Part shown: one piece after another, positions 1,454 to 41,148 of the stretch | How the letters are laid out: every line of letters starts with the position of its first letter | Numbering within the stretch: position 1 is the first letter of the stretch | IMG/VR virus record: IMGVR_UViG_3300042465_002598 | Span: 1 to 64,000 of that record | Strand: one strand, 5' to 3' | Origin: a virus | DNA length: 64,000 nt | Made by a program: the position numbers and the translations under genes | Notes under the pieces: model-generated | What the model was told of the DNA's origin: nothing | Databases searched by the model: none | What the model saw: only the letters and a program-made list of their open reading frames with translations

Positions 1454-1650
1454 TCCAATCCCTCCATCGCCTCGGTAACCTGCCCACGAATCTCTTCTAA
1501 ACACTGACGGGCGTCACCGTCGTGCTTCAGGCAGGTGCGGGCGAGTTGGTCGATACGGTGCAGCGTAGCCAACGACCGCAGACCATGAATGGCTGCTTGT
1601 GCCTCGTGTGATTCCGTGGGCACGGTGAAGGTCAAGGTGATGGTGCTCAC
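1450..1650 (-). CDS. Small early protein, 66 aa
   Basis: Unknown. The N terminus alternates as a beta strand (MSTITLTFTVPTES) and is followed by two predicted helices. The stop/start overlaps on both sides are ATGA. No motif is recognised; the calculated character is neutral and soluble. Confidence 0.65.
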   Translation of the reverse strand: MSTITLTFTVPTESHEAQAAIHGLRSLATLHRIDQLARTCLKHDGDARQCLEEIRGQVTEAMEGLE

Positions 1651-1985
1651 GACTTACCTCCAGGCGTCAGCGTAGCGGGTGCTTTACACGGCCATGTCTG
1701 GCGCAGGATGACGCGCACGATGATCGCAGCGGGCAAGTGCCGCTTGTCCGGGTTGTTCTGCAACCACTGCTTGATGACATCAGACGCTTGTCCGATCTGC
1801 ACCTGTTCGGGCGGGCAAATCTCAGTGTTGTAGTGCGCGTCAAGCACGCCCATGACGTAGCCCAGCGCTACCATAGGCTTCACCGGGCCGGGATCGTTCA
1901 AACGATCCAGCAACTCGTTGCCGCTCATAAACTGAGCGTGAGCAGTACCCGCCAGCAAAGCGGCGAGCAGGATTAGTTTCTTCAT
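1647..1985 (-). CDS. Secreted Rap1a/Tai-like protein, 112 aa
   Basis: Residues 1-17 (MKKLILLAALLAGTAHA) are a textbook Sec signal peptide with an AHA cleavage site, so the mature protein should be periplasmic. The mature part reads FMSGNELLDRLN, GYVMGVLDAH, CPPEQVQIGQ, DVIKQWLQNNP, KRHLPAA and WPCK, the pattern of the Rap1a/Tai immunity-protein fold, with two cysteines well placed for a disulphide. Family members characterised in bacteria neutralise periplasmic amidase toxins delivered by type VI secretion. In a phage it could protect the infected cell's wall, tune lysis, or block a competitor; that is inference. It sits in an unbroken run of overlapping early genes. Confidence 0.75.
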   Translation of the reverse strand: MKKLILLAALLAGTAHAQFMSGNELLDRLNDPGPVKPMVALGYVMGVLDAHYNTEICPPEQVQIGQASDVIKQWLQNNPDKRHLPAAIIVRVILRQTWPCKAPATLTPGGKS

Positions 1986-2182
1986 GCTGCTTCCTTTACC
2001 CGAGTGCCGCCGTTCTTGTTCTTCAGGTGCCCGTCACGCAAGAGAAGTCGAATTTCCACCAAACGGTCGTTGACAGCGTGACGGATGCGGGTATGACCTA
2101 TGGCATCGTTTTCCCGCTCCAGAACGTCAATGCGTCGTTGCATAGCGGCCAACTGTTGGTTGGTGATTCCTAGCTCGTTCAT
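1982..2182 (-). CDS. Small coiled-coil protein, 66 aa
   Basis: The start at 2182 (MNELGITNQQLAAMQRR) is preferred over the in-frame ATG at 2197 because it forms ATGA with the upstream stop. Residues 8-30 show heptad-like hydrophobic spacing (LAAMQRRIDVLERENDAI), consistent with a short coiled coil. The C-terminal half is basic. Function unknown. Confidence 0.6.
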   Translation of the reverse strand: MNELGITNQQLAAMQRRIDVLERENDAIGHTRIRHAVNDRLVEIRLLLRDGHLKNKNGGTRVKEAA

Positions 2183-2541
2183 GCTGCTTCCTTCCATGCC
2201 TGTTGGAGCATCCGCTCCTTCTCACGTTTCTTCTTCTCTCGGTACTTCGCCTTGCGCTCGTTCGGTGTAAGCGCGGGCTGCTTGGCATCGGTCTTCAGGC
2301 CGACTTTGTAAACGGCGATGACTCTGCGTCCCGTGGTCGTTGCCTCCCACATGGAGATGCGCACCACGCCGTGGTTCCACAGCGCGTTGATGTGCTTGCG
2401 TACCGTAGCCTTGGTCAGGCCCGTCTCTTCCACGAGGTCTGCCACTGACGCACCCACCATCAGATGCGACAGCATCCGGGCATAGAGCGCTGCGTTGACT
2501 TTCTGCCGGTACGAAGGGCGAATGAGTTGGACGTTGCTCAT
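2179..2541 (-). CDS. Winged helix-turn-helix DNA-binding protein, 120 aa
   Basis: The start at 2541 overlaps the previous stop. Residues about 31-53 (VADLVEETGLTKATVRKHIN) are a classic HTH: helix, turn at GLT, recognition helix. A wing follows (GVVRISMWEATTTGRRVIAVY). The C-terminal third is strongly basic (KAKYREKKKREKERM) and would add non-specific DNA contacts. It probably acts as a transcriptional regulator of the early block or of host genes; no operator can be assigned to it with certainty. Confidence 0.75.
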   Translation of the reverse strand: MSNVQLIRPSYRQKVNAALYARMLSHLMVGASVADLVEETGLTKATVRKHINALWNHGVVRISMWEATTTGRRVIAVYKVGLKTDAKQPALTPNERKAKYREKKKREKERMLQQAWKEAA

Positions 2542-2756
2542 TTCGGCTCCTCCATGAGCCCGCGCCAAGGCTCGTCTTGCGTGCTAGCGCGGGTGTTTTT
2601 GTACTGTGAAGCCGCCTCTACCGTGCTGCACCAAAAGCCCCAGAACTCACCGTTCCAGTATTGGTAGCCTACGTCTAGCTCAAGCCCGCACCACTGCATG
2701 TACACGCCCGGTCGGACGGGTTTAACGTCTCCGGGAAACCAGGGTGTAAGTATCAT
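2538..2756 (-). CDS. Small phage protein with PWFPGDVKPVRPGVY motif, 72 aa
   Basis: The start is placed at 2756, where ATG overlaps the upstream stop, rather than 2762. The sequence PWFPGDVKPVRPGVY followed by aromatic-rich repeats (YQYWNGEFWGFWC) recurs in small proteins of many phages. It looks like a compact beta domain. Function unknown. Confidence 0.65.
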   Translation of the reverse strand: MILTPWFPGDVKPVRPGVYMQWCGLELDVGYQYWNGEFWGFWCSTVEAASQYKNTRASTQDEPWRGLMEEPK

Positions 2757-3538: not shown

Positions 3539-3630
3539 CCGCCCTGCGGGCGAATGACTCATCGGACTGCTTCGCAACCCGACTTCCCGCCCTGCGGGCG
3601 AATGACTCATCGGACTGCTTCGCAACCCGA
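3539..3630. repeat. 48-bp tandem repeat, two copies
   Basis: Two 44-base copies (3539-3582 and 3587-3630) are identical and separated by four bases, giving a 48-bp period. Each begins with a small GC-rich hairpin (CGCCCTGCGGGCG) and continues with GACTCATCGGACTGCTTCG. They lie in the gap between a minus-strand terminator and the next early gene and contain no plausible gene. Confidence 0.9.
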
Positions 3631-4543: not shown

Positions 4544-4771
4544 CTAGAAAAGTGAGGGTGAATAACCCACGGTGTATTTACCGTCACCGTTACCCGTCGC
4601 CATACCACTACCTGGGCCGTATTGGAAGCCTTCACCATAACCTTCGCCATCGAAGCCCACACCGTAGGTATCACCATCCCCGAATTTATGGGGTGCCAGC
4701 ATGAGAAACAGGGCGCGATCACCACGACCGTTACCGTGCATGGCGGCGTTGGACAGGTACCACATCAGCAT
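4544..4771 (-). CDS. Glycine-rich microprotein A (WYL-NAAMHGNG type), 75 aa
   Basis: The frame starts at ATG 4771 with MLMWYLSNAAMHGNG, continues as a Gly/Asp/Tyr-rich region with little regular structure, and ends SPSLF. Its stop TAG is part of the TAGGAGG site of the next gene. Two related frames (6006-6254 and 7316-7543) have the same head (WYLADAV-HG-G), a glycine-rich middle of different sequence, and a final Phe. The conserved ends around a variable centre argue that all three are translated. It directly follows the VWA gene. Function unknown. An alternative is that only the DNA is conserved. Confidence 0.55.
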   Translation of the reverse strand: MLMWYLSNAAMHGNGRGDRALFLMLAPHKFGDGDTYGVGFDGEGYGEGFQYGPGSGMATGNGDGKYTVGYSPSLF

Positions 4772-4793
4772 GGACTGACACCCGTTCCCGTTT

Positions 4794-5996
4794 TCAGGCG
4801 GGCACATACAGCGTGGTGCCGTTCGGCGCGGTGATGTTCTTGGTGCTGACGCACCACAGCACGGGCGCAGGCCACGTGCCCCAGTCCCTGCCGATGTAGC
4901 CATCGGTGAACTGAATGACGCAGTCGGGCTTGATGCCGTGCGCGTTCATGTAGCGCTGCATGCTGACCGGGTCGGTGCCGCCCCCGCCCTTGGGCTTGGT
5001 CACCTCGGCCAGCGTGGTGACCGCGTCACCCTCGTAGACCTCATGCCCTGCCACCTGTGCGTCCCAGTAGATCACATCGACCATCTCAGGCTTGACGACC
5101 TCGCACGCGGCCATGATCTCGGTCAGCGCACGACGAAGCTGCTCGGCACCGATGGAGCCTGAGGTGTCCACGCCAATGGTGATGCGTTTGGTGGACTCAG
5201 AGTACCGCGAGGGCAGCGTGGCGTCGATCGCCATGCCACGACGCGACGGACGCCGCCACGTGGACAGGTCAGCACCGGTACAGGTGGAACGCAGGAAGTC
5301 CTTCAGCATCTCGCGCCAATCGACCGCGACCTCCAGCAAGTCCTTCACGCTGCGGTCCAGGGACGCACCGGTCTTGCCAGCGATGATCGCTGCCTGACGC
5401 ACAGCGGTGTCCACCGCCTTCGCCACCTGAGCAGCCTGCGCTTCGCTCAGGGCCTCACCCACCTCGCCGTCCTTGTCGCCGCCCGACGCAGGGCGGTGCT
5501 CGTCCATCGGCTTGGCCTTGCCGCCCGAGGCAGACTTCTGCTGCTGTTGCTGCTGTTGCTTGGCCTGCTGCTTCATCCTCCGGTACACCTCACCCGCATC
5601 CATGCCGTCGTACTGGTAGTCGAGGATGGCGTCAGGCCACACGGTAAGGAACTTGTCAGCACCCGCACCGGCCTGCTTGTCCAGCATGATGTTGATCACC
5701 GCATCGCATGCCATGTTCGCAAGCTGCGGGTCTTCATCGAACAGCCGCTTCCACGTAATCATGTGCATGAACAGCACGTGGTAATACTCGTGCAGCACAA
5801 CGAAGCGCAGCGTCTGGTCATCCAGCGTGCCGATGAACTGCTTGCCGATGAGCACATCCCTGCCGTTTGTCGCAGCAGTGGGTAGGCCATCCACGAGCTT
5901 GCACTCGCCTTCCATCATCAGGCCGTTGAGGGCCATGAACCGTGGGTCACGCATGATCGCAACCCGAGTCCGCAAGAGTCGATCTTCTGGGGACAT
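4794..5996 (-). CDS. Metallopeptidase-like plus VWA domain protein, 400 aa
   Basis: Residues 65-80 hold a zincin motif (H69-E70-Y-Y-H73), typical of the putative metallopeptidase domain that precedes VWA-like domains in bacteria. A low-complexity Lys/Gln linker at about 140-155 follows. The C-terminal VWA-like domain shows an intact MIDAS: D277-T-S279-G-S281, T341-D342 after four glycines, and FTDGY at 363-367. The next gene upstream is a MoxR-type AAA+ ATPase, the usual genetic partner of this family; such pairs are thought to remodel or chaperone target complexes with metal ions. What the phage targets is unknown. Start: TTAGGAG before ATG 5996. Confidence 0.85.
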   Translation of the reverse strand: MSPEDRLLRTRVAIMRDPRFMALNGLMMEGECKLVDGLPTAATNGRDVLIGKQFIGTLDDQTLRFVVLHEYYHVLFMHMITWKRLFDEDPQLANMACDAVINIMLDKQAGAGADKFLTVWPDAILDYQYDGMDAGEVYRRMKQQAKQQQQQQQKSASGGKAKPMDEHRPASGGDKDGEVGEALSEAQAAQVAKAVDTAVRQAAIIAGKTGASLDRSVKDLLEVAVDWREMLKDFLRSTCTGADLSTWRRPSRRGMAIDATLPSRYSESTKRITIGVDTSGSIGAEQLRRALTEIMAACEVVKPEMVDVIYWDAQVAGHEVYEGDAVTTLAEVTKPKGGGGTDPVSMQRYMNAHGIKPDCVIQFTDGYIGRDWGTWPAPVLWCVSTKNITAPNGTTLYVPA

Positions 5997-6005
5997 GTGA
6001 ATCTC

Positions 6006-6254
6006 CTAAAAAAGAATAGCCCGCGAGCCGTTGTCGTAGCCGTCGCCGTAGCCGTGACACTCACCACTTCTGGGGCCGCAATACGCATTGGCCTGCGTGA
6101 TGCCGCTACCATTGGCTCCGCCAAATCCGTCGCCGTGACGTAAACCATCACCGAAGAAGTGCTCGCCTTCCGACAGGACAGATGCGAGAGCTGTGTCCAC
6201 GCAAAGGCCCGAGCCATGCATAACGGCGTCGGCTAGGTACCAGATGAAGATCAC
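6006..6254 (-). CDS. Glycine-rich microprotein B (WYLADAVMHGSG type), 82 aa
   Basis: A GTG start at 6254 overlaps the TGA of the AAA+ gene (GTGA). The head reads (V)IFIWYLADAVMHGSG; the middle is Gly/Asp/Ala-rich (FFGDGLRHGDGFGG; CHGYGDGYDNGS) and the end is RAILF. The TAG stop is inside the TTAGGAG site of the VWA gene. It belongs to the same family as 4544-4771 and 7316-7543. Seventeen bases of the head are identical in DNA to those of the 7316-7543 copy. Function unknown. Confidence 0.55.
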   Translation of the reverse strand: MIFIWYLADAVMHGSGLCVDTALASVLSEGEHFFGDGLRHGDGFGGANGSGITQANAYCGPRSGECHGYGDGYDNGSRAILF

Positions 6255-7306
6255 TTCATCACCCAGTGATTGGCACGGACCCAATCGCCAAAGCTCTCGT
6301 TCAGCACGGCCCACTGCTTGCGGGAACGAAGCAACTGCGTGACAAACACGCACTGCATCTCTGTCGGCAGCCGCTTGATGTAGACCATCACGTTGTCGAG
6401 CGTGTCCCTATCGGTACGCATCACTGCACGATAGACGGTCATCATCATGGCCGCAGCGTTGTCGGGCACCTTGGCCTTGTCCGGGGCGTTGATGATCGTT
6501 GCCCAGGCAGGCAGCTTGTCGGCCAGTTCCACGAAGGCCATCAGGTCGAGCGCAGCGCGGGGGCCGAGGTTGCCAGCGATGGCAGCCAGGGTGATGTCGG
6601 CATCACCCACTGCCGTGCGGCGATCCTCACGCAGTTCGATGCTGGCGAGGTACAGCGAGCGGGGCGTGCAGAACGAGCGGCGCTTCTCCCGGGGGTGGAA
6701 CCCGTACGGGAAGTCCTCGGGGCGGTCGTGGTCCTTGAAGCTACCGAAGAGCCGTCCCTGCTCCTCCTTGGCCCAGGCCAGCATCGCCTCGTTCACACCG
6801 TTGGCGAGGCCCCACTCCACCCACTCGTCTGCGGTCGGGTTGCGCATCTCGATGAACGACACACGGTTGCAGGCATGGGCTTGGAAGAGATCACCCACAC
6901 CCTCGGCACCGAGGTTGGTCGCACCGAACACGATGCTGCCCTCGGGCAGAGCCTCTGCACCGACGCGGCGCTCCAGCATGACCGGGAGAAGCGCATTCTG
7001 CACCGGGCGGGACGCCTTGCCGATCTCGTCCAGCAGCACCACCATCGGCTTGCTGCGGTCACCCATGAGCAGTACGTTGGGAAGGAACTCGACCACGCGG
7101 CGCTCCTTGTCGATGGCAGGAATCTGCACATCGCCCACATCCCACTGCGTGCAGTCCACGGTCACCACGTTGTACTTCGTGGTGTTGAACATCTTCACGA
7201 TGCTCGACTTACCGGAGCCCATCGGACCCTCGATGATGTAGGTCTTATCCACACCGTTGATGTTGATGAGCTTGAAAATCTGATTGATGTTGAGCTTGAG
7301 GTTCAT
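6251..7306 (-). CDS. MoxR-type AAA+ ATPase, 351 aa
   Basis: Walker A is GPMGSGKSS at 27-35, Walker B VVLLDEIGKA at 89-98, and sensor 1 GATN at 128-131. The arrangement and length match the MoxR/RavA branch of AAA+ proteins, which work with VWA partners. The gene lies just upstream of the VWA gene, separated only by microprotein B. It probably hydrolyses ATP to remodel a substrate chosen by the VWA protein. Start ATG 7306 follows CTAGGAGTGAACA. No obvious missing motif; activity is likely intact. Confidence 0.85.
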   Translation of the reverse strand: MNLKLNINQIFKLININGVDKTYIIEGPMGSGKSSIVKMFNTTKYNVVTVDCTQWDVGDVQIPAIDKERRVVEFLPNVLLMGDRSKPMVVLLDEIGKASRPVQNALLPVMLERRVGAEALPEGSIVFGATNLGAEGVGDLFQAHACNRVSFIEMRNPTADEWVEWGLANGVNEAMLAWAKEEQGRLFGSFKDHDRPEDFPYGFHPREKRRSFCTPRSLYLASIELREDRRTAVGDADITLAAIAGNLGPRAALDLMAFVELADKLPAWATIINAPDKAKVPDNAAAMMMTVYRAVMRTDRDTLDNVMVYIKRLPTEMQCVFVTQLLRSRKQWAVLNESFGDWVRANHWVMK

Positions 7307-7315
7307 TGTTCACTC

Positions 7316-7543
7316 CTAGAAATTAAAATGACGCCATTCGGGAGAGCGGAAGCCGCCCTCTCCGTTGCCGTAGCCGTCGCCGTAGCTGTCGCCGTAGCCG
7401 TAGCTGTAGCCGTTGCCGTTGCCGTCGCCGTAGCCGTCGCCGTAGCCGTAGCCGTAGCCGTAGCCGTAGCCGTAGCCGGTGCCATGCGTGACAGCGTCGG
7501 CTAGGTACCACAGCAGGCTATTTGATGTGCTTCTTCCACACAT
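7316..7543 (-). CDS. Glycine-rich microprotein C with Gly-Tyr repeats, 75 aa
   Basis: ATG 7543 lies inside the end of the preceding gene. The frame reads MCGRSTSNSLLWYLADAV, then THGTG, about seven Gly-Tyr dipeptides and a longer Gly/Tyr/Asp/Asn array, and ends WRHFNF. The stop TAG starts the TAGGAG site of the AAA+ gene. The array is encoded by GTAGCC-type hexamers, so its length can change without a frameshift. It belongs to the same family as the two microproteins downstream. A GTG frame in another register is open here but encodes an Arg-Leu array and lacks the family head. Confidence 0.5.
   Translation of the reverse strand: MCGRSTSNSLLWYLADAVTHGTGYGYGYGYGYGYGDGYGDGNGNGYSYGYGDSYGDGYGNGEGGFRSPEWRHFNF
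7362..7480. repeat. Hexanucleotide microsatellite (GCCGTA-type)
   Basis: An imperfect array of six-base units (gccgta, with gccgtc, gctgta and gccgtt variants) covers about 120 bases. The purest part, six or more identical units, is at 7440-7477. Because the unit is a multiple of three, gain or loss of units would lengthen or shorten the Gly-Tyr tract of the microprotein on the minus strand. Confidence 0.85.
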
Positions 7544-7781
7544 CGTTGCACTCGATGAAGTGGCACAGCCTCGCCTTGGGCACGAGCACCGTAGGCACCG
7601 GGTCGAGCGCGGTCTCACCGAGCGGGCCTTCAAAGGCCAGTTGGCCGAAACCCTTCGTGGTGCCACTCTTGCGCACGTTGAAGCCGTTGGTCACGGCATA
7701 GTAATAACCGTCGAAGATGATGTTGCCGACGTAGACGAAGCCGTTGTCCACAACGGCGAGTTGGATTCCGAAGTCTTTCAT
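7518..7781 (-). CDS. Hypothetical early protein, 87 aa
   Basis: Unknown. A beta-rich protein (IQLAVVDNGFVYVGNIIFDG; YYYAVTNGFNVRKSG) with a C-terminal helix (RLCHFIECNDVWKKHIK). Start ATG 7781 follows TAGGAGAGAGAA. The 3' end overlaps the start of glycine-rich microprotein C, and the gene lies within the MoxR cassette, between the 312-aa protein and the ATPase. Confidence 0.6.
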   Translation of the reverse strand: MKDFGIQLAVVDNGFVYVGNIIFDGYYYAVTNGFNVRKSGTTKGFGQLAFEGPLGETALDPVPTVLVPKARLCHFIECNDVWKKHIK

Positions 7782-7829: not shown

Positions 7830-8768
7830 TTACAGCGCAAACTTGTCGAGGATTTCCTGCATAGCAGTCTTCGTGCTGCGTTGCAGTTCGGGGGACTCCC
7901 TGAGGGAGTCAATGTCGATGCGACTCAGTGCCGTCTCCAGATCACGCCGCGCTTCCTCCAGGCGCGGGTCGTTGGTCACGTTGAGGTCTTTGAGCAGATC
8001 GGTCAGGGCAAGGCCCTGCTCCAGCATGCTGTCGTACAGCTTGGGACGGCGCTTCTTCTTGATCTCGACCGACACCACGGTGCCTGCGTCGTCCGTGGTC
8101 TTGATCTCCTCCACCTGATCCGGGTCGTACGCCAGCACGGCGTCCATGCGCTCACGCACCCACTCGACTTGGGTCTTGACCCGCTCCCACGCGTCGGCCA
8201 CAGCGCCTGACACCCGTTCCGCGATCTGCCGCTCATACTGCTCGGCCAGTTGGTTCTTCGCCTCGTTACCGATGTCCACGCGGAAGTCACCCGACATAGG
8301 CAGGGGCTCGATCACGTACGAGAAGCGGAACTTGGCAGCCACCTCGTCCTCGTGCGGGTACTCGCTGCGGTCGAACAGCGCGCCCATCTCGAAAGCCTGC
8401 TTGCTGATCTCGGTGCTGTAGGTACCGATGAAGGCGCGCACCAGCGCGTTGAAGCGCTGCTCGTACTTGGCAGCCTGACTCGTGATGTCGAGGTACTGGG
8501 CTACGGTGATGAGACGCCGACCGTTGTCGTCCCACGGCAGGGTCACCGTGTTGAACCACTGGCGCACCTCGCCGCGCAGGGACTTGATGGCTTCCAGCGC
8601 AGGGCACTCACTGAACAGGTGCTTGTGCACCGTGGCAGCGCGCTTGCTGCGTGCGCCCTTGGAGACGGCCACCTCCTCGGCAGTCTTCTTGTCTTGCTTC
8701 CGTGCTTCCCACACGGAGATGTTGATGCTGCCCAGCATGGCAGCGGCGGTGATGGATGTGATACTCAT
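7830..8768 (-). CDS. Hypothetical helical protein of the MoxR-VWA cassette, 312 aa
   Basis: First large gene of the cassette. It has no recognisable enzymatic motif. The protein is largely helical and charged, with probable coiled coils around residues 170-215 (EAKNQLAEQYERQIAERV) and in the C-terminal third. Position suggests it is an adaptor or substrate for the AAA+/VWA pair, which is inference from gene order. Start ATG 8768 follows CTAGGAGTTCCC. No membrane segment or signal peptide. Confidence 0.65.
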   Translation of the reverse strand: MSITSITAAAMLGSINISVWEARKQDKKTAEEVAVSKGARSKRAATVHKHLFSECPALEAIKSLRGEVRQWFNTVTLPWDDNGRRLITVAQYLDITSQAAKYEQRFNALVRAFIGTYSTEISKQAFEMGALFDRSEYPHEDEVAAKFRFSYVIEPLPMSGDFRVDIGNEAKNQLAEQYERQIAERVSGAVADAWERVKTQVEWVRERMDAVLAYDPDQVEEIKTTDDAGTVVSVEIKKKRRPKLYDSMLEQGLALTDLLKDLNVTNDPRLEEARRDLETALSRIDIDSLRESPELQRSTKTAMQEILDKFAL

Positions 8769-37487: not shown

Positions 37488-38836
37488 GTATCTGGGCAAA
37501 TGTTGTCAAGCGGTTCACATCGCCTTCGCTGCCAAGGCCACCAGCGGAGTATGAGCAGAGCTACCAAAACAACTTCATCAACATCCTTCGTCTGTACTTT
37601 AACCAGTTAGACGAGCTTCTGAGGCAAATCGTGTCAGCACAACCCGTAAGCGTCAATTTCTACGGCAGTGCGGTTGATGCGTTTGGCCGCGCCAGAACGA
37701 GCCTGCCTTACACGCTCTTTGACTCTCAGAACCGCTACGAGAAGAACGACCTGTTTAGCGAGACCACCGCCACGGGCGGGACGGTGACGTACACGGCCAA
37801 CGAGAGCACGGTCAACCTGAACGTCACGACAAGCAGCGGCTCCGAGGTTGTGCGTCAGACGCTCCGCTCTTTCCCTTACCAGCCGGGTAAGGGCCTGTTG
37901 GCAATGAACACCTTCGTCATGGGCGCGGCGCAGGCGAACTTGCGGATGCGGGTGGGGTACTTCAACACGGAGAACGGCGTCTTCTTTGAGCGCGACGGCT
38001 CGGCGTTGTACATGGTGCGCCGCACCTACGTGTCGGGCACTGCCGTGGATACGCGAGTGGCGCAGACAGACTGGAACGGCGACAAACTCAACGGCACGGG
38101 GGACTCAGGGTTCACCCTTGACCTGACCAAGGCGCAAATCTTCTGGGAGGACTTTGAGTGGCTGGGCGTGGGCTCGGTGCGGTGCGGGTTCGTCATTGAC
38201 GGGCAGACCATCGTCTGCCACACGTTCAACAATGCAAACAACCTGACCACCGTCTACATGACCACGGCGATCCTGCCCGTGCGGTACGAGGTCACAAACA
38301 CCGGAGCCACTGCCGCGTCGGCAACGCTCAAGCAAATCTGCTCCACGGTGATCTCCGAGGGCGGCTACGAGAAGAAAGTGGTTCCGACCGTGGTCAGGAT
38401 GACAACGGCCAACACGAACATTGGCAGTGCTTTTGTCCCGTTGATGTCGATCCGGCTGGCCTCGGGCAGGACGGGCGCGGTCATCGTGCCTGATGGGTAC
38501 TCGGTGCTCCCTACAGCGTCTTCGTCCGTGACGTTTGAGGTCGTCGCAGTCAAGAACCCCACCCTGACCGGCGCGTCCTGGGGGGCAACGGACTCCAACA
38601 ACGTTGAGCGAGACCTGTCGGCCACGAGCTACACGGGCGGCACGATTGTGTTTTCGCAGTACGTACTGGCTTCAAACCAGTCCAGCGGCCTGATCGGAAA
38701 CGGTCAAGAATACAACTGGGAGTTGCAGCTTGGCGCTACCATCGGGGGTGTGAGTGACATTTACACCATCGCCGTCCGGGCGCTCAGCGGCACGCAGACA
38801 GCCATCGGCTCCATGTCCTTCTGGGATTTGACATGA
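37484..38836 (+). CDS. Tail structural protein, 450 aa
   Basis: GTG start overlapping the previous stop (GTGA). The N-terminal 55 residues are helical (YQNNFINILRLYFNQLDELL), possibly a docking part. The rest is beta-rich (VSVNFYGSAVDAFGRARTSL; VFFERDGSALYMVRRTY; GGTIVFSQYVLASNQSSGLI). It may be a needle, tail spike base or adhesin; no lyase motif is visible. Confidence 0.65.
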   Translation: MSIWANVVKRFTSPSLPRPPAEYEQSYQNNFINILRLYFNQLDELLRQIVSAQPVSVNFYGSAVDAFGRARTSLPYTLFDSQNRYEKNDLFSETTATGGTVTYTANESTVNLNVTTSSGSEVVRQTLRSFPYQPGKGLLAMNTFVMGAAQANLRMRVGYFNTENGVFFERDGSALYMVRRTYVSGTAVDTRVAQTDWNGDKLNGTGDSGFTLDLTKAQIFWEDFEWLGVGSVRCGFVIDGQTIVCHTFNNANNLTTVYMTTAILPVRYEVTNTGATAASATLKQICSTVISEGGYEKKVVPTVVRMTTANTNIGSAFVPLMSIRLASGRTGAVIVPDGYSVLPTASSSVTFEVVAVKNPTLTGASWGATDSNNVERDLSATSYTGGTIVFSQYVLASNQSSGLIGNGQEYNWELQLGATIGGVSDIYTIAVRALSGTQTAIGSMSFWDLT

Positions 38837-41148
38837 TCGACCGCAGACTCATGGGTGAGGGAGACGACTTCTTCAACCCCAGGGACGCCTCGTTCCTGAC
38901 AAATATCGTTGGTGGCACTACCGCCGCTCCCGCCGCATCTCCTGCCGCTGTCTCCCCCTCTGACTGGGCGCGCACTTACCTAGACACTTACCGCACCCCG
39001 GGCAGCGAAGAAGTTCTAGCGTACGAGACAAAGCCGTATGAGTTTGGGGCAAGAGACGAAGATATCCTTCGTTCGCTCGGGTTTACAGGTGGCGCACTCA
39101 AAGATGTAACAGAGGGCTTCGGAGAGTACGCCAACACCTACCAAGAGCTAAGCCCCGAAGCACAAGAGTTTCTCCGTCAAGGCGGCTACCAACTCGCGTC
39201 CAAGCGTGGCAAAGGCGGAGATTGGTTCACGGCTCTGGACCCCACTGGTAAGGCGGTCGGGCAGTCGTTCTTCCGCGAAGACCCAAAAGACAGTGCTGCG
39301 GTAAACCTTGGGTTTGCCGCTTTTCAAGCCATGATTGGCAATCTTGCCGGTCCAGGCATGGCGCTTGTAAACGCCGCTCGTGCTGCGGATCAGGGGGACA
39401 TCCTTGGTGTCATTGCTTCCGGCGCATCCGGCCTCGGCGGGCTTGGCGCGGTTCCGGCAGACCTTGCCAAGACTGTTGGACAGGCTGCTCAGGTTGGGCG
39501 TGCCATTCAGCGTGAAGACCCACTCGGCCTCTTGGCCTCTGGTTCAGCGTTGCTCGATGTCAAGAATATCGCCGGGATGCCGGTCAAAGATGTATTGAAC
39601 TACGGCAAAGTCGCTCAGGCTATTGCTAACGAAGACCCGTTGGCGGCGCTTATGGCGCTTGGAAACACGCCGGTCGGTAAGGACATGAAGCCCTCAACGG
39701 AAATCACAAATCCGCTGAGCATTGTGTCGAATCTGTACAGCGCTTCGCAGGGCGACCCGCGTGCGTTGCTTGACGCCATAAAGACCATTGGTTATGAGGC
39801 AGAGGCCCGTTCAGTTGATGAACCGTCCGCGCCCAAGACAACCGACCCGATCCTCTCACAGATCATCGATGCGTTTCAGAACGCAGACCTTGGCAGTGCA
39901 GGTGTAGGGACGCAGGTGGCGTCTACGGGCGACGATGTGCTGTCGCTGCTTGGCGGCTCCAAGATCACGAGTGGCCTAGACCCTGACGAGATTCTTGCCG
40001 GGTCCGTTGCTGAGCGGGCGAGCGACGAAGAACTACTCAGGTACATCCTGCCGGATTACTTGTTTGATAGGAGCACTGCCGACCAACGCATCGAGATCAC
40101 CGCACCGCCTGAACCCATTCCGCCCACGCTCGACGTTGATGAGATTCTTCGCACGCCGATTCCACGGGAAGACTTGGGTATCTCGGCAACTCCAGCCGAC
40201 CAACGCATCGAGATTACTGCGCCGCCTGAACCCATTCCGCCCACGCTTGATGTCGAAGAGATTCTTCGCACACCGATTCCTCTGGAGGACATCGGCGTTC
40301 CCGCTACGCCGGTAGATCAGCGGGTAGAAGTCGTAGCTCCACGCAGCACCCCTGAACCCATTCCGCCCACGCTTGATGTCGAAGAGATTCTTCGCACACC
40401 GATTCCTTTGGAAGACATCGGCGTTCCGCCCACTCCTGCTGATCAGCGGGTGGAGGTTGTAGCTCCGCGAGGCACCCCTGAACCCATTCCGCCCACGCTT
40501 GATGTCGAAGAGATTCTTCGCACACCGATTCCTTTGGAAGACATCGGCGTCCCGCCCACTCCCGCTGACCAAAGGATAGAAGTTGTAGCTCCGCGAGGCA
40601 CCCCCGCACCTATCCCGCCTGTACTCGACGTTGACGAGATTCTTCGCACACCGATTCCTCTGGAGGACATCGGCGTTCCCGCTACGCCTGTTCTTGAGCC
40701 TCTGACGGATGGTGAGCGGCGGTTTGACGTAAAGGAAGGCGAGCCTGCCCGGGTAGAGATTGTTGCGCCGCGTGGTGGAATCGAGCCAATCCCTCCCATA
40801 CTCGACGTTGACGAGATTCTTCGCACACCGATTCCTCTGGAGGACATCGGCGTTCCCGCTACGCCTGTTCTAGACTACCCCCCGCCAGCACCCACCCCTG
40901 CTCCGGCTCCGGCTCCGGCTCCTGCGCCCGCATCTCCCCCCGCCGCTCCTACTCCTCCCCCTGCTCCGGCTCCTGCGGCAAAACCCAAGGACATGGACTG
41001 GCTTGCATTGCTGGCGCTTCTCGGCCAGCAGGGGCAGCGGGCACCAGAACCCTACCAAGTTGCGCAGATTACTGCGCGCTCTCCCTTCGGGTCGATACTG
41101 GACGACGAAACATCGCAGGACGACCTACTGAGAATTCTGAGAGGTTGA
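38833..41148 (+). CDS. Internal virion-type protein with tandem Pro-rich repeats, 771 aa
   Basis: ATG overlaps the upstream stop (ATGA). The N-terminal half is Ala/Gly/Leu-rich, with helical bundles that could insert in a membrane (AVNLGFAAFQAMIGNLAGPG; VIASGASGLGGLGAVPADLA). Residues about 417-680 hold six repeats of roughly 39-42 residues with PIPPTLDVEEILRTPIPLED, then GVPATP. A Pro/Ala tract and a short helix (DMDWLALLALLGQQG) close it. Proteins of this place in podoviruses are ejected into the cell. Repeats may act as a flexible spacer. Confidence 0.65.
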   Translation: MIDRRLMGEGDDFFNPRDASFLTNIVGGTTAAPAASPAAVSPSDWARTYLDTYRTPGSEEVLAYETKPYEFGARDEDILRSLGFTGGALKDVTEGFGEYANTYQELSPEAQEFLRQGGYQLASKRGKGGDWFTALDPTGKAVGQSFFREDPKDSAAVNLGFAAFQAMIGNLAGPGMALVNAARAADQGDILGVIASGASGLGGLGAVPADLAKTVGQAAQVGRAIQREDPLGLLASGSALLDVKNIAGMPVKDVLNYGKVAQAIANEDPLAALMALGNTPVGKDMKPSTEITNPLSIVSNLYSASQGDPRALLDAIKTIGYEAEARSVDEPSAPKTTDPILSQIIDAFQNADLGSAGVGTQVASTGDDVLSLLGGSKITSGLDPDEILAGSVAERASDEELLRYILPDYLFDRSTADQRIEITAPPEPIPPTLDVDEILRTPIPREDLGISATPADQRIEITAPPEPIPPTLDVEEILRTPIPLEDIGVPATPVDQRVEVVAPRSTPEPIPPTLDVEEILRTPIPLEDIGVPPTPADQRVEVVAPRGTPEPIPPTLDVEEILRTPIPLEDIGVPPTPADQRIEVVAPRGTPAPIPPVLDVDEILRTPIPLEDIGVPATPVLEPLTDGERRFDVKEGEPARVEIVAPRGGIEPIPPILDVDEILRTPIPLEDIGVPATPVLDYPPPAPTPAPAPAPAPAPASPPAAPTPPPAPAPAAKPKDMDWLALLALLGQQGQRAPEPYQVAQITARSPFGSILDDETSQDDLLRILRG
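40079..40874 (+). repeat. Six tandem coding repeats
   Basis: Units of 117-126 bases encode DQR(I/V)E(I/V)(T/V)AP plus PEPIPPTLDVEEILRTPIPL and EDIGVPATP. Five are contiguous; the sixth is separated by an insertion of about 18 codons near 40690-40755. Several units are nearly identical in DNA, so unequal recombination can change their number. Confidence 0.9.

Follow-up and report, generated by a model that had tools for sequence, protein, structure and literature searches.

In eukaryotic FUS-type [G/S]Y[G/S] low-complexity domains and in silk-like GX repeats, glycine alternates with tyrosine or serine and with polar residues, and self-association is expected of such sequences. The GX (Gly-X) repeat of the phage studied here appears to resemble them in composition only, being Asp-rich, phage-encoded and hypervariable. 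Closer parallels are found among phages. DUF6948 (Pfam PF22253) genes with a following Gly-rich open reading frame (ORF) are present in phages Ymer/Amona, Iodobacter phage PhiPLPE, Vibrio phage IKEMa6-1 and the isolate MW202898. The locus described here shares with these pairs a small gene that is followed, usually with an overlap, by one for a (GX)n protein in which X is mainly Tyr, Asp, Ser or Asn, and a short constant head; the hypervariable tail is seen in relatives of the pair. It differs from them in that its small upstream protein, gp87, is too divergent for Pfam, the GX gene (W3) is read in a different frame with respect to gp87, the head WYLADA..HG is confined to this phage group, and extra copies are present at other gene junctions. 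A search of the open-access literature returned no description of the pair and no mention of DUF6948 or of four typical GX strings; the DUF6948-GX two-gene unit is apparently undescribed.

The second system that bears on this locus is the MoxR-vWA chaperone pair of jumbo phages, which occurs with a metallopeptidase and for which a role in virion assembly or processing has been proposed (PMC7824862). Likewise, the phage studied here has genes for an ATPase of this kind and for a DUF2201 metallopeptidase-VWA protein. In contrast, no Gly-rich protein was described for the jumbo-phage system (the word 'glycine' occurs 0 times), and GX genes are mostly found without a MoxR-vWA pair.

Results

Three microgenes in a MoxR/VWA cluster

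The window, that is the whole stretch of 64,000 nucleotides that was analysed (positions 1 to 64,000 of IMG/VR record IMGVR_UViG_3300042465_002598), belongs to a tailed phage; the closest terminases to its own are from Pelagibacter phage HTVC023P, phage DSL-LC04 and Planktothrix phage Pag-Yong1. A DNA search of the region against GenBank phages gave no match, and tblastn of the microproteins gave low-scoring chance matches only, with the GX tails masked by the complexity filter. Pfam 'TrAA12' matches were under the cut-off and were judged to be a composition artefact. The features of the locus are as follows.

4544-4771, minus strand: W1, displaced paralogue (by head) downstream of the VWA gene; ATG start; varied codons and an irregular Gly-rich tail
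4794-5996, minus strand: metallopeptidase-VWA protein (DUF2201_N + DUF2201), context; Pfam, phrog_1314
6006-6254, minus strand: W2, displaced paralogue (by head) between the ATPase and VWA genes; GTGA start on the ATPase stop; homologue in relative L001 at 5263-5514
6251-7306, minus strand: MoxR-type AAA ATPase, context; phrog_1297 (E 2e-46), Pfam AAA_5
7316-7543, minus strand: W3, GX microprotein, MCGRSTSNSLLWYLADAVTHGTG(YG)n...FNF; ATG inside gp87, or CTG at the head, start uncertain
7362-7478, minus strand: hexanucleotide tract (GGCTAC/GGCGAC) coding for the Gly-X tail of W3; period 6, 19.5 copies, 87% matches
7518-7781, minus strand: gp87, small DUF6948-like protein directly upstream of W3; neighbour profile and hhalign

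A sequence-only reading of the window had proposed that W1, W2 and W3 form a family with constant ends around unrelated middles. All three frames were present on the minus strand, and the common head, WYL[AS][DN]A..HG.G, had 3 exact matches in the window and 0 in 100 dinucleotide shuffles. The junctions were also as had been read, with the GTGA of W2 on the ATPase stop codon and the ATG of W3 26 nt inside gp87. The stop TAG was part of a TAGGAG site in all three frames as claimed; this is weak evidence because CTAGGAG also precedes genes without a microgene in front (those with an ATG at positions 8768, 7781 and 3520), and the common final Phe is explained by the sequence TTYTAGGAG. The middles are not all unrelated: W1 and W2 have D.AL..[VM]L....FGDG in common, and their tails aligned better than 2000 shuffles. 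These tails are Gly-rich without strict alternation and use varied codons, and the strict (GX)n tail, with X mainly Y, D, S or N, is found in W3 as a near-perfect tract. By the head, W1 and W2 are classed as displaced paralogues.

Two further repeats were seen in the window. In an intergenic stretch at 3539-3630, 48 bp are duplicated perfectly in tandem and include an inverted repeat (ccgccctgcgggcg), and a 126-bp tandem repeat at 40102-40679 lies within a late-region ORF of 771 aa (38833-41148).

The microgenes are very probably coding and mobile

The scans found the head in one other IMG/VR contig, IMGVR_UViG_3300037502_001319 (L001), which is a close relative (ATPase identity 93%, VWA identity 91-92%) and the only one found; no near-identical relative of the window was among the hits. 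L001 carries the head at least twice. Tandem copies, G1A and G1B, sit between the ATPase and VWA genes, and the ATG of a relative at a fourth site, G1C, overlaps the stop of the preceding gene. No copy was found upstream of the L001 ATPase or after its VWA gene (the W1 site is empty), and L001 has gp87 with no GX gene at the W3 site. In the more distant relatives L009-L011, which have the same ATPase and VWA genes (VWA identity to the window 58%), these junctions are empty of microgenes. Copies come and go between junctions.

W2 and G1B were aligned over 82 codons and gave a dN/dS of 0.28, and 0.07 for the head alone (synonymous versus non-synonymous change, Fisher p 4e-6). Their dS was ∼1.1 versus 0.28-0.62 in four neighbouring genes, so the W2/G1B pair is older, or faster evolving, than its surroundings. 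In five heads, 9 of the 15 variable columns were third codon positions, and the head is therefore conserved mainly as protein. Head conservation and the dN/dS of W2/G1B indicate a real family of small proteins and not DNA noise; together with the L001 copies and the empty junctions of L009-L011 they make it very probable that W1-W3 are genes that move between junctions.

The arrangement of the starts and stops could also be read as a coupling device, in which the microgenes keep ribosomes flowing over the junctions and the peptide itself is unimportant. Each microgene starts on or near the upstream stop and ends within the downstream Shine-Dalgarno site, and a tandem array in another locus (L040) has the same layout (TGAAGGAG). 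Coupling would, however, not require a conserved head sequence or a GX composition, the same CTAGGAG sites serve genes that have no microgene in front of them, and the same junctions are empty in L001 and L009; we consider a mere coupling role very improbable.

A likeness of the head to a bacterial protein was also considered. When the head pattern was compared with genomes, about seven of the 31 matches were carB, which might suggest that the CarB oligomerisation segment (IWYLADAFRHG) is imitated by the head, or is its origin, and that the head targets the host carbamoyl-phosphate synthetase. The likeness spans ∼10 residues and was noticed after the motif had been chosen; Pfam gave no match even at E 10, to the CarB oligomerisation domain included, and no CarB structure appeared in the PDB search. 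CarB mimicry, which is barely conceivable on this evidence, was rejected, and WYLADAxRHG in the CarB of L153, L164, L168, L169, L171, L173 and L177 was taken as coincidence. None of the genome contigs with the head pattern has a Gly-rich tail.

GX genes follow DUF6948 genes

IMG/VR was scanned with (GGN DAY)4, a DNA pattern for a Gly-X repeat, which gave at least 120 loci. At about half of the loci listed there were short ORFs, with a (G-Y/D/S/N)n tail behind a brief head. A Pfam scan of the ORFs flanking the GX genes gave DUF6948 in 22/120 and the next family in 2, among the matches listed. With a profile iterated from the neighbours of GX genes, a same-strand DUF6948-type ORF was found beside GX at 49 of 58 loci, versus 3 of 62 control loci (Fisher p 1e-20, matches listed); as the profile was trained on neighbours this test is partly circular, and the Pfam tally is not. 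The controls were loci of the same scan, and at least two of the three positive ones (L053, L119) do carry a GX tract, which failed the GX filter or was lost at a contig end. With the window included, 50 of the 59 GX loci among the matches listed had a same-strand DUF6948-superfamily ORF, and in 45 of them GX lay ≤600 nt downstream; the DUF6948-type gene was mostly directly upstream of the GX gene.

For the reverse test, IMG/VR was scanned with a DUF6948 motif, WYWxGAxxxxQLA, of which GX is not part. This gave at least 120 matches, and loci with at least 300 nt downstream were counted. Among the matches listed, a GX tract was present ≤400 nt downstream on the same strand in 84 of 87 DUF6948 loci, upstream in 4/87 and on the opposite strand in 0/87. 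When the DUF6948 proteins were clustered at 90% identity, GX downstream was retained in 79 of 82 clusters (matches listed). The motif was drawn from DUF6948 proteins with GX neighbours, and the reverse test therefore covers that subfamily only.

The two genes overlap. In 70/86 of the matches listed the GX gene begins 13 nt short of the DUF6948 gene's end, and one relative frame is kept in 80/86. At the gp87-family loci L049, L053, L055, L068, L074 and L118 the GX ATG is formed on a conserved C-terminal Trp codon (aATGGa). Genes for Rad52, RecT, Erf, exonucleases, NinG, RusA, sliding clamp and SSB flank the pair in the reverse-test loci, and the pair therefore belongs to early replication/recombination regions. 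A PDB profile search with DUF6948 found no relative, and a PHROGs search with ten GX proteins found no match. A search of 398 genomes of one bacterial phylum with DUF6948 gave 0 matches and was uninformative, the controls being equally silent.

Several tandem GX copies with one head and different tails were found in L035, L040 and L117. The L040 array (1476-2640, minus strand) consists of ∼6 tandem GX microgenes with tails of a few to ∼40 units; each stop TGA lies within the next AAGGAG site, and genes for a DUF6948 protein and a MoxR ATPase lie downstream of the array. In one subfamily (L050, L123, L134, L194, L199 and L200) GX forms the N-terminal portion of a longer protein whose C-terminal domain is conserved, with WHH.LTGSC in several of them.

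gp87 and W3 as a probable variant of the pair

gp87 matched the neighbour profile with E-values of 2e-6 to 5e-11, the profile including gp87's own relatives, and hhalign against DUF6948 gave an E-value of 4e-5 with a probability of 70%. In Pfam, gp87 itself had no PF22253 match, and 4 of 9 members of its family matched weakly (best E 0.0013). From these profile comparisons gp87 is probably a distant DUF6948 relative, a kinship that falls short of formal proof.

If its ATG is used, W3 starts at -26 relative to the end of gp87 and overlaps it. W3 is in the minority frame, not the usual one (80/86, matches listed), and the usual -13 start would give an ORF of only 12 codons in the window. W3 has the minority frame and possibly another start, and is therefore called a variant of the DUF6948-GX pair and not a standard member. 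Because the frame differs and the usual start yields so short an ORF, W3 may have arisen by re-insertion of a copy and not by direct descent. The order in L104 is as in the window, with a gp87 homologue, a GX protein and, further on, a MoxR ATPase; the G002 relatives are without gp87 and without microgenes.

The tail is hypervariable in order and constrained in composition

Y, D, S and N together make up 90-95% of the X residues in GX units; single mutations would give His, Phe or Cys as easily, yet X stays within these four residues. The third codon positions are C or T and vary across loci. Around the GX gene, the Pectobacterium phages Ymer and Amona have the same sequence for 550 nt upstream and 380 nt downstream (930 nt). 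Their GX genes nevertheless differ in length (222 and 204 nt) and in how the units are ordered, and have the head MSKLIKPEKYG and the end in common. The difference is consistent with six-base units having been gained, lost and shuffled in frame; a repeat assembly error is possible with assemblies that lack long reads. A diversity-generating retroelement was considered, as the X codons look N-N-C, and was judged unlikely: most Ser codons are TCC/TCT, and few X residues are Gly, Ala or Cys.

These observations bear on a reading in which the tract is a selfish hexanucleotide minisatellite with an incidental ORF, which spreads between junctions without protein function. In its favour, the tail of W3 repeats a 6-bp unit almost perfectly, phages whose flanks are identical have different tails, and other frames of GX-type repeats are often open too. 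Against this, head changes are mostly synonymous and W2/G1B dN/dS is 0.28, X is limited to Y/D/S/N, the relative frame to the upstream gene is kept in 80/86 (matches listed), and the Gly-rich tails of W1 and W2 use varied codons. The alternative of DNA-level repetition, raised with the original reading, thus stands for the in-frame hexanucleotide repeat of the W3 tail and fails for the head, and a selfish repeat devoid of protein function is unlikely.

The microgenes are not a regular part of the MoxR-VWA module

The microproteins had been suggested as a new component of the MoxR-VWA module, and they might be components or substrates of such a chaperone/metallopeptidase module. W1-W3 all lie within the MoxR/VWA cluster of the window, W2 starts on the ATPase stop, and GX proteins were near a MoxR-type ATPase in L040 and L104; L135 gave a weak partial match. 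Beyond these few loci, most GX loci have no MoxR or VWA gene nearby, and the recurring partner of GX is DUF6948. L009-L011 have the same ATPase and VWA genes without gp87 and without microgenes, and Pag-Yong1 has ATPase and VWA genes without GX. The microgenes thus adjoin the MoxR/VWA pair here and in two other loci and are not a regular part of it; the suggestion was not borne out, and participation in the module is improbable.

In Planktothrix phage Pag-Yong1, three small proteins that look paralogous by eye (C.GG..RF...FG) are encoded between the VWA and ATPase genes (L179 28637-29663). They would be a second family that has expanded in a cluster of this type, and have no relation to GX.

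Discussion

We consider W1-W3 to be one translated family, of which W3 is this phage's GX member of a widespread DUF6948-type/GX pair whose partners act together, and give this reading a probability of roughly 0.6. One partner of the pair would be a small DUF6948-type protein, here gp87; the other, whose gene follows and overlaps the first, would have a short head and a (Gly-X)n tail in strict alternation, with Tyr, Asp, Ser or Asn as the main X residues. Further copies that keep the head would have spread to other junctions (W1 and W2 in the window, G1A, G1B and G1C in L001), and their tails would have departed from the strict repeat. As the tail is a coding hexanucleotide repeat, units could be gained, lost and shuffled in frame, which would explain the constant ends around a fast-changing middle.

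The two proteins may act together early in infection, given their replication and recombination neighbours. The GX tail would be a self-associating, sticky scaffold in which composition matters more than order, and the DUF6948-type protein its folded partner. Strict alternation, tolerance of changes in order but not in composition, and the Tyr/Ser/Asp content suggest, at the level of primary structure, that the GX protein is a self-associating repeat. AlphaFold2 gave no confident structure (pLDDT 36); both models made were at ∼35, one of them that of the VWA protein.

GX ORFs are an annotation blind spot, as gene callers can mis-frame or miss them. The GX ORF after DUF6948 in PhiPLPE (L302 1190-1460) is unannotated, and in Chlorobiaceae phage CV-1-33 (L303 2786-3031) the annotated gene is apparently in the wrong frame (MAMAMALAM...). 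The pair is present in cultured phages and is therefore directly testable. A near-invariant pair in very diverse phages, of which one partner changes between genomes that are otherwise the same, with its composition preserved, points to a putative common function. In the broadest form of our proposal, for which we see even odds, many phages would carry an unrecognised two-gene system of a DUF6948-type protein and a hypervariable (Gly-X)n protein, the latter self-assembling and quickly diversified through its hexanucleotide repeat, perhaps driven by host pressure, and in the phage of the window the GX gene would have multiplied and moved to new junctions.
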